Below the pieces are notes generated by a model. It saw only the letters and a program-made list of their open reading frames with translations. It was not told the DNA's origin and made no database searches. This document shows positions 1 through 18,852 of a DNA stretch of 22,062 nt, piece by piece (the stretch's first letter is position 1; every line of letters starts with the position of its first letter). Origin of the DNA: Azoarcus sp. Lineage in GTDB: Bacteria > Pseudomonadota > Gammaproteobacteria > Burkholderiales > Rhodocyclaceae. A program made the translations under genes and the position numbers. The stretch is taken from the NCBI GenBank assembly GCA_031259795.1, contig JAIRLA010000192.1:1-22062 (forward strand), given 5' to 3'.

Positions 1-303
1 AACCTTACCCCTGAACAGCTTGCCAAAGCCAGAGAGTCAGCCAGCCAGCTAAATCCACCCGTGGATTTCGACGCAATGCTTGATGAAGTGGATAGGCTAG
101 GTGTGGAATGCACGGGAGACTTGACAAGAAAGGCAAGAATTATTATTTGTGGACAGAAGATTGAAAATACAAAAAAACAAGAAAATATTGATAGACTTAA
201 GGCTGATACAGAAGCAACAAAGGCTAGAACCGAACAAATCCACAAGGAAAATGCAATACTCATTAAACAACTCCAACAACAAATAAAAGAAAATAAATGA
301 TAG
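1..303 (+). CDS. Hypothetical coiled-coil protein, 5' truncated, TGA-recoding (code 25) organism
   Basis: The frame is open from the first base, so the N-terminus lies outside the window. The visible 100 residues are hydrophilic. The second half, from about residue 50, is rich in Lys, Glu, Gln and Ala with heptad-like spacing, suggesting a coiled coil. Under the standard code it stops at TGA 298-300. Under code 25 that TGA is glycine and TAG 301-303 ends the gene one codon later. It overlaps the next gene's ATG at 297, a typical co-translated arrangement. Base composition (A-rich, many AAA, GAA and ATA codons) is unlike everything after 1205. No family is recognised. A GTG at 61 could be an internal start, but the upstream frame reads as plausible protein, so truncation is preferred. 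Confidence 0.55.
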
Positions 304-1205
304 ACAGTATTATGGGAAATGAAGCTATAAAATCATCCGAAAACACTGAAAGTGTAGAACAACTAAGAGCGAAATATGAGAATATCCAGCCAATGAATAT
401 GTGACCCACAAACGAAACCATAGGGAAGCTTAGGCTTGACGAAATTTTTGATACTTTTGATGAAAATGCTAATACCCCTTTAACTCAAGAAGATAAACAA
501 CAAATTGAAGACTTAGTCTCTCAACTACCCAACTGAAAAGCAGATAAAAATAATACACTTCTTGATATTTCAAAGTTTATCAAAGAACTGTGAAGCGAAA
601 TCACGAAAGAAGATTTGATTGACAATATACATGAAAGGATAAGTACTCAACAAAAAACTACTACAGAAACACACGCTAAACTTGAAAACACATCTACACA
701 TACAGAAGAAAATACAGAAATCCTCCGCCAAGAAAACATCCGCTCCCTTACCAACTCCCTTAACACCCTCCTACCTGCCGACAACTCCAAACCCTACAAA
801 CCCCTTCTAGACAAACTCCAAACCATAGACCCCAACAACCCTTGACCTGAATTTGACGAGATTATTTCCCAACTCAACAACCAAGAAACACTATTATCAA
901 TCTCCCTTGACCTACAAACCCAAGACCACCAAAACGGAACCCATAACTTTGAAACCTTCAAAACCTCAATCATCAACCTAGACCCGAGCTTCAAAGACAA
1001 ATTCCCGCAAGCAGAAACCAACGCAATGCTTGCCCTTTGAACGGACAACCTAAGAAACACCAAGATTACAAGCAACGGCTACAAACAAACCACCGATGAC
1101 GGCTTCACCACATCCGCAACACCGGACGGCACAGCAAGAACCGTAGGACGCACCGACAGCAAACTACACCCTAAAAAGCAACCTGGACACATTGGAATAG
1201 GTTCT
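297..1205 (+). CDS. Hypothetical protein with five in-frame TGA codons, cut at the contig junction
   Basis: Starting at ATG 297 (overlapping the upstream gene's end), one frame runs about 300 codons with no TAA or TAG but with TGA at 402, 534, 591, 843 and 1038. Read as glycine, these give sensible local sequences such as NMGPTNE, LPNGKADK, KELGSEI, NPGPEFDE and LALGTDN. This is the hallmark of code 25 in Gracilibacteria and SR1. The product is acidic and hydrophilic, with no signal peptide or membrane segment; Gln, Glu, Thr and Asn dominate and the middle may be helical. The coding strand becomes C-rich and G-poor after about 720. The frame then runs into unrelated G+C-rich DNA near 1205, so the true C-terminus is missing. 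The end coordinate is the estimated junction, not a stop. No family recognised. Confidence 0.6.
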
Positions 1206-1230: not shown

Positions 1231-2106
1231 TCAGCGGAAAACGATCGTCTTGTTGCCGTGCAGAAGCACGCGGTCTTCGAGGTGATAGCGCAGGCCGCGG
1301 GCAAGCACGGTCTTTTCGATGTCCTTGCCGTAGCGCACCATGTCGGCGACGGTATCGCTGTGGTCGATGCGGATCACGTCCTGCTCGATGATCGGCCCCT
1401 GGTCGAGTTCGGCGGTGACGTAATGGCAGGTCGCGCCGATCAGCTTCACCCCCTTGGCCCATGCCTGGTGATAGGGGCGCGCGCCGACGAAACTGGGCAG
1501 GAAACTGTGGTGGATATTGAGGATTCGTCCCGGACAGGCCGCGCACAGTTCGGGGGAAATGATCTGCATGTAGCGCGCCAGCACCATGGCGTCGCCGCGC
1601 GCTTCCTCGAAAATGCGCCGCATCTCGGCGCAGGCCGCCGTCTTGTTGTCCGGCGCGACCGGCACGTGATGAAACGGAATGCCGTGCCATTCGACAAAGC
1701 CGCGAAAAGTTTCGTGATTGGAAATCACGCACGGAATTTCGACATCCAGTTCCCGCGATTGCCAGCGCGCCAACAAATCGTAGAGGCAATGTTCCTGCTG
1801 GCTGACGAGGATGACCACGCGCTTCTTGACCGCCGAATCGGTGATTTTCCAATCCATGCCGAATTCTGCCGCGATGGGCTGGAAACGCTCGCGCAACTCC
1901 GCCAACATGAAGGGGAGCGAATCGGCGCGTATTTCGATCCGCATGAAATAGCGCCCGACGTCTTCGTCCTCGTCGGGCGGCTGCGCGTGCAGCGCGGTTT
2001 CGAGAATCCAGCCCTGGTGCGAGGAAATGAATCCCGAAACGCGGGCCACGATTCCCACCCGATCCGGGCAGGAGGCGGAAAGCGTATAAAAACGTTCGCG
2101 GTGCAT
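1231..2106 (-). CDS. purU: Formyltetrahydrofolate deformylase
   Basis: PurU hydrolyses 10-formyl-THF to formate and THF in the cytoplasm, balancing one-carbon pools and supplying formate to PurT. The 291-residue product has the usual length. Residues 1-85 form an ACT-type regulatory domain (CPDRVGIVARVSGFI near the N-terminus). Residues 95-291 are the formyltransferase fold, with NIHHSFLPSF (N197, H199) and the ELDQGPI segment (D235) supplying the Asn-His-Asp catalytic set. It lies 20 bases downstream of thrH on the same strand and is probably co-transcribed with it. The stop is TGA, used normally. Its 3' end nearly touches the compositional junction, so the native downstream neighbour is lost. 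Confidence 0.95.
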   Translation of the reverse strand: MHRERFYTLSASCPDRVGIVARVSGFISSHQGWILETALHAQPPDEDEDVGRYFMRIEIRADSLPFMLAELRERFQPIAAEFGMDWKITDSAVKKRVVILVSQQEHCLYDLLARWQSRELDVEIPCVISNHETFRGFVEWHGIPFHHVPVAPDNKTAACAEMRRIFEEARGDAMVLARYMQIISPELCAACPGRILNIHHSFLPSFVGARPYHQAWAKGVKLIGATCHYVTAELDQGPIIEQDVIRIDHSDTVADMVRYGKDIEKTVLARGLRYHLEDRVLLHGNKTIVFR

Positions 2107-7599: not shown

Positions 7600-7754
7600 C
7601 CCGCTTGGCGGGCGAGAGGGTGCCCGAAGGGCGGGAGAGGGCTTCGTGCCAAACGGCGCGCAGCGCCGCTGGATAAAAAAGGGGGCGAAGGAAGGGGACG
7701 CCTGTCCACGCCCCACCGCCAAGAAATCAGCGTCGCTGCGCTCCGCACAGAACG

Positions 7755-7793
7755 AACTGGATTGCCACGTCGCTACGCTCCTCGCAATGACGA
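7755..7793 (+). repeat. Dispersed 39-base repeat, copy 1
   Basis: Begins AACTGGATTGCCACGTCGCT and ends CTCGCAATGACGA. The reverse complement lies at 18771-18809 with one mismatch (A for G at the 21st base). A shorter relative (GCGTCGCTGCGCTCCGCA) precedes it at about 7729-7746, as also happens at the other locus. Confidence 0.85.
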
Positions 7794-7939
7794 GGTGGGG
7801 GGCGGCTTTCGTAATGACGAGGTGGGGAGCGGCTTTCGCAATGACGAGGCGGGGGCGGCCTTCGTAATGACGAGGCGGGAGCGGCTTTCGTAATGACGAG
7901 GCGGGGGCGGCTTTCGCAGTGACGAGGCGGGGGCGGCGC
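7783..7939 (+). repeat. Six-unit tandem array, period 26-27 bases
   Basis: The anchor AATGACGAGG (AGTGACGAGG in the last unit) recurs at 7786, 7813, 7840, 7866, 7892 and 7918, giving spacings of 27, 27, 26, 26 and 26. Each unit continues with a G-rich run and CGGCTTTCG. The first unit is the tail of the dispersed 39-base repeat, so the array appears to have grown from that element's end. It stops about 25 bases before the pncC stop codon. Confidence 0.88.
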
Positions 7940-18740: not shown

Positions 18741-18852
18741 CGCCCCCACTTTGCCAATAACGCCCCCACTTCGTCATTGCGAGGAGCGCAGCGACGTGGC
18801 AATCCAGTTCCACCCATGCGGAGCGCAGCGACGCGGTAATCCAGTTCGTTCC
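18711..18852 (-). repeat. Composite dispersed repeat at the 3' end of lplT
   Basis: The 39-base core at 18771-18809 is the reverse complement of 7755-7793 with one mismatch. It is flanked by AATGACGAGG in direct orientation at 18711, two copies of CAATAACGCCCCCACTT 20 bases apart (18735 and 18755), and a second partial copy (GAGCGCAGCGACGCGGTAATCCAGTTCGTTCC-like, 18820-18852). AATGACGA (18711-18718) and TCGTCATT (18771-18778) are an inverted pair. It fills the gap between convergent lplT and the hydrolase gene. Confidence 0.82.

Follow-up and report, generated by a model that had tools for sequence, protein, structure and literature searches.

A TGA-recoded gene at the end of a probably betaproteobacterial contig: a possible decaying cassette behind purU

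The DNA analysed here, called the window below, is a stretch of 22,062 nucleotides that constitutes the entire contig C137 of the MAG G000 (2.4 Mb, 308 contigs, 78% complete). This MAG is GC-rich and probably betaproteobacterial; right of position 1200 or so the contig has ordinary genes, and this GC-rich host DNA represents 95% of it. The GC fraction is 0.39 from position 1 to 300, 0.41 from 301 to 1197 and 0.64 right of 1200. The question raised by this locus is how a piece of 1.2 kb with a lower GC content, which carries a long reading frame containing TGA codons, came to stand next to the genes of a bacterium that uses the standard code. The explanation that we favour, with moderate confidence, is that the left 1.2 kb represent a truncated, decaying two-gene cassette that originated in a bacterium with recoded TGA, or in mobile DNA of such a bacterium, and became integrated just behind the purU gene of a standard-code betaproteobacterium. 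The original prediction had seen Patescibacteria DNA at the left end of the window; the recoded gene is present, but it is joined to a contig that is host DNA for 95% and its relatives are embedded in contigs of an Accumulibacter MAG. The features of this region are the following.

1-300, plus strand: last 99 codons of gene A, the 5' part with the signal peptide being lost at the contig end; stop TGA at 298-300, then TAG at 301-303.
312-1160, plus strand: gene B, first 283 codons or so, for the N-terminal part of a protein whose homologue has 535 aa, with TGA as a sense codon; start taken from the relatives L003 and L004.
1161-1200, plus strand: homology to B continued in the next frame, NYTLKSNLDTLE (compare DYSLKSDIDSTT in the homologue P0049), to the TAG at 1198-1200; frame shift near 1160.
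1195-1212, no strand: junction between the low-GC piece and the host DNA, some 20-35 bp past the stop codon of purU.
1231-2106, minus strand: purU-like host gene (formyltransferase, ACT; Pfam Formyl_trans_N, 1.1e-40), with a TGA stop.

The frame 297-1195 comprises 299 codons with no TAA, no TAG, five TGA and no TGG, and the other two plus-strand frames contain 13 and 9 TAA or TAG codons over the same stretch. In none of 2000 dinucleotide-preserving shuffles was any of the six frames free of TAA and TAG, which rules out a frame open by chance and confirms the predicted opening of about 300 codons from position 297. The TGA codons announced at 402, 534, 591, 843 and 1038 are all present and correspond to residues 36, 80, 99, 183 and 248; the preceding gene does end with TGA-TAG (298-303). 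The start at 297 stands only as the start of the recoded frame, since L003 and L004 place the beginning of B at an ATG equivalent to position 312. At the other end, the last 12 codons or so of the frame do not belong to gene B, the homology switching frame near 1160, and under code 25 the same frame happens to stay open across the antisense strand of purU as far as 2783. Gene B is thus a broken copy in the window, both truncated and frame-shifted.

A profile search with A detected at least two contigs of the Accumulibacter sp. MAG Ncb351_bin41 (G060), which carry the loci L003 and L004. In both, B lies behind A, with TGA at three codons where the window has TGA too, so that TGA occupies the same three sites in all three B loci. 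The dN/dS ratio of B is 0.28 between the window and L003 and 0.22 between L003 and L004 (window and L004 are saturated at synonymous sites), and the differences at the three codon positions are 35/23/43 and 25/16/40 for these two pairs, respectively. Because TGA is kept at the same three sites and dN/dS is about 0.2-0.3 with two loci of another genome, B is a real protein-coding gene, TGA-recoded, and not noise. An ordinary pseudogene with stop mutations is ruled out, as diverged copies share the positions of their TGA codons and no TAA or TAG has appeared.

The protein databases contain few relatives of B. A search over a longer length range recovered P0049, a metagenome protein of 535 aa with 66% identity to B over 94% of the query; the only other homologue in the protein search is P0003 (306 aa, 44%). 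The contigs of P0049 and of the A homologue P0033 both measure 2205 bp, and those of P0003 and of the A homologue P0039 both measure 3328 bp; given these matching lengths, the A-B pair is probably conserved around P0049 and P0003 as well. B gave no accepted match in Pfam, PHROGs, NCBIfam or the PDB sequences (only hits below the cut-off), and no relatives were detected among the genome contigs, viral contigs, phages and plasmids searched. Its structural model is weak (pLDDT 65.1, pTM 0.41); it predicts an all-helical, partly coiled-coil protein and has no Foldseek match at E <= 0.001 in the PDB or among viral models. A phage or plasmid origin was considered and rejected, no relatives being present in phage, viral or plasmid records.

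Gene A is better represented. The protein search returned 43 matches including the window gene itself, hence 42 homologues, so that the claim that both proteins are unrecognised does not hold. Five homologues bear organism names: Betaproteobacteria (1), Candidatus Accumulibacter (2) and Candidatus Peribacteria (2); several come, presumably, from termite guts. The two proteins from a Candidatus Peribacteria bacterium (P0031 and P0041), from a MAG with the locus prefix LBQ24, are on contigs of 54 and 51 kb and constitute the best lead to a donor. The relatives of A possess a signal peptide and two invariant Cys, and the model of the homologue P0005 (pLDDT 86.5) displays two short helices and one long helix; judging from these features, A is probably a small exported protein of helical or coiled-coil type. 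Counted as glycine codons, TGA accounts for 0 of 11 in A (four loci) and for 11 of 21 in B (three loci), with a Fisher p of 0.0045, homologous sites not being independent. Among the 149 Gly of the 42 A homologues none is replaced by W, and the three W are all at a Leu position, a count that is biased since TGA would not appear in homologues predicted under code 11. The original view of a recoded pair is therefore retained for B only, no glycine codon of A being TGA. In overlapping sets of genomes, A was found in none of 59 others, none of 394 others sampled evenly across the family and none of 98 relatives of G060; because it is missing from the 394 family genomes and the 98 relatives, A is foreign and patchy.

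In G060, a fragmented metagenome assembly, A is present on the contigs C69, C29, C86 and C342 and B on C69, C29 and C233, thus at five loci in all.

L003 (C69): between hemB and an amidohydrolase-like gene.
L004 (C29): behind the T6SS genes tssK (VasE) and tssL (DotU) and before a membrane-protein gene, which we take to be tssM (its 218 available residues match no family).
L007 (C86): between an outer-membrane efflux gene and a Metal_resist gene.
L008 (C342): remnant of A with a TAG, in surroundings richer in GC.
L012 (C233): between a relA/spoT gene and a homocysteine methyltransferase gene; remnant of B that keeps TGA at site 36, and a tail of A.

Host genes are found on both sides of the foreign segment at L003, L004, L007 and L012, and on one side only in the window; the flanks of the embedded copies are of high GC on both sides. 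A is intact at L003, L004 and L007, B is cut at L003 and L004, and the place of the cut differs in each locus. The cassette is thus present in host contigs at several stages of decay, and the G060 copies look like integrated, decaying recoded DNA rather than only misbinned contigs. The segments L003:1836-2360 and L004:5920-6400 extend from the signal peptide region of A to roughly codon 40 of B; compared in successive windows they share 84-97% identity, and beyond this point the identity falls to 45-78%. The dS between the two loci is 0.24 for A and 0.89 for B. This step in similarity would be a sign of a recombination or gene conversion tract, and the A copies are closer than the B copies, as if retention or homogenisation in the host had preserved their likeness. 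By tblastn, 60 G060 stretches (365,700 bases, 7 wholly masked) and 40 G000 stretches (332,148 bases, 3 wholly masked) contained no additional copy of either gene, and no recoded-looking low-GC islands were seen in them, the larger islands being, by eye, ordinary standard-code genes.

Some smaller elements accompany these loci. Imperfect GACAG-rich repeats (GAAGACAGAGGACAG-like) are intergenic in G060, some of them at the edges of inserts (L003:1-245, L003:2980-3180, L004:5660-5860, L007 near 3000 and L046:58-540). They were rejected as an insertion signal, being absent from the window and found elsewhere in the G060 contigs too. By eye, additional scrambled fragments of low GC are visible in the low-GC part of L003. 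Further scraps, one of them inverted, lie at L003:2690-2960 behind the truncated B, and one reads ...GNTGAGGT-TGA-PVATSSGQSLP, with the TGA in a Gly-rich context.

In the window, the limit of the host DNA was located by comparison with the 13 same-genus genomes that possess a full-length orthologue of the purU-like gene. The closest relative found, L078 (94.6% DNA identity), matches from purU down to position 1212, which puts the end of the low-GC piece at about 1200-1212; the other 12 match down to 1223-1231, so that all 13 matches end at 1212-1231. Behind purU, L078 contains other DNA with a terminator-like stem followed by an ompW-like gene (by eye). The low-GC piece is placed between genes, behind a host stop codon. 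Under our preferred explanation the junction would be biological; the contig end inside A would fit an assembly break in a multi-copy gene.

The main competitor of an integrated cassette is an assembly chimera, in which the end of a contig from a recoded Patescibacteria, or from its phage, would have been misjoined to a betaproteobacterial contig. The sharp step in GC at about 1200, the division of G000 into 308 contigs and the presence of host DNA on a single side in the window all fit such a misjoin, as does the fact that the ompW-like region of L078, expected beyond the insert, was not found in G000; in addition, contamination of bins by recoded contigs is documented in PMC8629427. However, the pair or its remains are located between host genes at four loci of another MAG (L003, L004, L007 and L012), and the eroded, partly GC-adapted copies L008 and L012 are unlike products of chimerism. 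We therefore regard a chimera as less likely than integration, although it is the most probable of the alternatives, and at the junction of the window, near 1200, both readings fit the data. Pure misbinning is unlikely, given the embedded copies in G060, but less clearly so for the window itself.

As to the amino acid encoded by TGA, the five sites are as follows.

402-404, plus strand: site 36; TGA in L003, L004 and the fossil L012; W in P0049.
534-536, plus strand: site 80; TGA in L003 and L004; W in P0049 and P0003; GGA (Gly) in L007.
591-593, plus strand: site 99; TGA in L003 and L004; W in P0049; Gly in P0003.
843-845, plus strand: site 183; W in P0049.
1038-1040, plus strand: site 248; W in P0049 and P0003.

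With reasonable confidence, we favour Gly over Trp. At site 80, the codon of L007 (the third A locus) is GGA, opposite the W of P0003 and the TGA of the window; two alignments differ in the placement of P0003 at this site, and the one used gives W. The frame of L007 matches P0003 with 14 of 31 residues identical, a score reached by none of 500 shuffles. The scores of the same piece against P0049 and against the window protein (P0001) were reached by 159 and 26 of 500 shuffles, respectively, so the link between L007 and B rests on P0003; the B profile search of G060 gave no match at L007. The prediction that Gly is plausible at all five TGA is thus supported at two aligned sites, 80 and 99, and faces W at all five in P0049. 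The original prediction had taken Trp at these positions as pointing to code 4. W does occur at five of five sites in P0049 and at two in P0003, both being predicted proteins whose underlying codons were not seen; a code-4 gene caller writes TGA as Trp, and the W of P0049 are probably TGA codons read in this way.

Some phages recode only part of their genes, and the donor could be a code-4 bacterium or a phage with TGA read as Trp that infects standard-code hosts. The W of P0049 and P0003 agree with this possibility, and a phage of partial recoding would be in keeping with a pair in which the standard code suffices for A and not for B. P0003 starts at a TTG three codons after the place of the in-frame TGA in L007, which would fit a call under code 11 whose W are true TGG. 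No TGG is found among the in-frame codons of B in the three loci, but this says little on Trp versus Gly, because A-ending codons dominate (89% of the Lys, Glu and Gln codons in these genes), TGG is expected to be rare anyway and its absence has a probability of about 0.2 under Trp; the codon test was set aside as uninformative. Against Trp stand the GGA of L007, aligned through P0003, and the Gly of P0003 at site 99; against the phage version, the lack of viral, phage or plasmid relatives. The sites are also mostly in loops or near helix ends of the B model (7 of 10 W positions and 18 of 18 true Gly, for 52% of all residues), a test that is weak, as is the model. We hold the Trp reading to be rather improbable.

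The host cells appear to use the standard code. The purU-like gene ends with TGA, as does its orthologue in L078, and G060 possesses RF2 (493.7 bits for a cut-off of 370). G000 has no RF2 above this cut-off (best match 269.6 bits, in a bin 78% complete whose genes end in TGA); the match is perhaps RF1, and RF2 is probably missing through the incompleteness of the bin. The tRNA-Gly(UCA) that the original prediction proposed to look for in the same bin was not obtained: in each of the two bins, G000 and G060, ARAGORN was applied to 30 of the 34 tRNA loci and detected no UCA anticodon. The two MAGs would belong to one family, which we take to be Rhodocyclaceae.

Under our preferred explanation, a cassette from a recoded bacterium or its mobile DNA would integrate into the chromosome of a standard-code host. 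In the donor, A would be exported and B read through TGA as a full protein. In the host, A would be translatable as it is and B would stop at the first TGA after about 30 codons; B would for this reason be dead on arrival and erode, and A may stay in use. The copies suggest more than one arrival of DNA from a recoded microbe, which may live on these bacteria, the cassette having presumably made several separate entries.

A more elaborate version, which we consider doubtful, is a cassette built for two codes: A, readable in both, would be made and exported by the colonised host, and B would be readable only in the symbiont. Repeatedly seeded into host chromosomes by the symbiont or its mobile DNA, such a cassette would leave A to persist and B to erode. 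The absence of TGA from A, the lack of W in place of Gly among the A homologues, the intact A beside a cut B at L003 and L004, and the closer similarity of the A copies are consistent with it. That B still functions in the betaproteobacteria, its TGA codons being suppressed or read through, is very improbable: the conserved TGA and the constraint on the protein speak for it, but the constraint can date from the donor, neither bin has a UCA tRNA in 30 of its 34 tRNA loci, G060 has RF2, and B is truncated at different points, frame-shifted in the window and a fossil in L012.

For the cassette as we favour it, the source is most likely a symbiont that lives with such betaproteobacteria and reads TGA as a sense codon, or else mobile DNA of this symbiont; we infer a Patescibacteria-type episymbiont of the JAEDAM01 or Absconditabacteria kind. 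The bacteria that read UGA as Gly (JAEDAM01 / Gracilibacteria BD1-5 and Absconditabacteria SR1; code 25) resemble the segment by frequent sense TGA, low GC and TAA or TAG stops, and at two sites of B other homologues have Gly. The class JAEDAM01 (UGA=Gly) is described in PMC11393006 as an episymbiont of Zoogloea (order Rhodocyclales), and this host is likewise a betaproteobacterium. In contrast, the DNA studied here is embedded in standard-code betaproteobacterial contigs, and no marker gene, tRNA-Gly(UCA) or genome of a donor carrying B was found.

Two other known situations are comparable. Contamination of assemblies by recoded contigs, a known trap according to PMC8629427, also places recoded DNA in the bin of another organism; whole contigs are concerned there, whereas here the DNA adjoins host genes within contigs, in five places of one MAG and in a single place of another, and some copies are eroded. 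PMC10746230 reports phages that are compatible with recoded CPR as well as with other bacteria and would offer a route for DNA between two codes, but those phages are described there as avoiding in-frame TGA, whereas B is full of TGA and no phage gene or homologue was found here. Our searches of the open-access literature showed no earlier description of recoded DNA that had become part of a host genome, though one may have escaped them.

A change of genetic code is regarded as an obstacle to the exchange of genes between organisms. Repeated integration, if true, would mean that the DNA crosses between codes and the message does not; it would explain stretches with in-frame TGA that resemble misbinning, and the hosts of uncultured recoded episymbionts could be named from fossils in host chromosomes. 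A testable pair of host and symbiont is offered by the Accumulibacter relatives (of termite-gut type or other; their termite origin is our assumption) and a recoded partner.

Finally, the host part of the window contains an inverted repeat of 72 bp, 90% identical between positions 7730-7801 and 18763-18834, which corresponds to a dispersed host repeat; shorter related pieces are located at 7782-7833 and 7888-7937.
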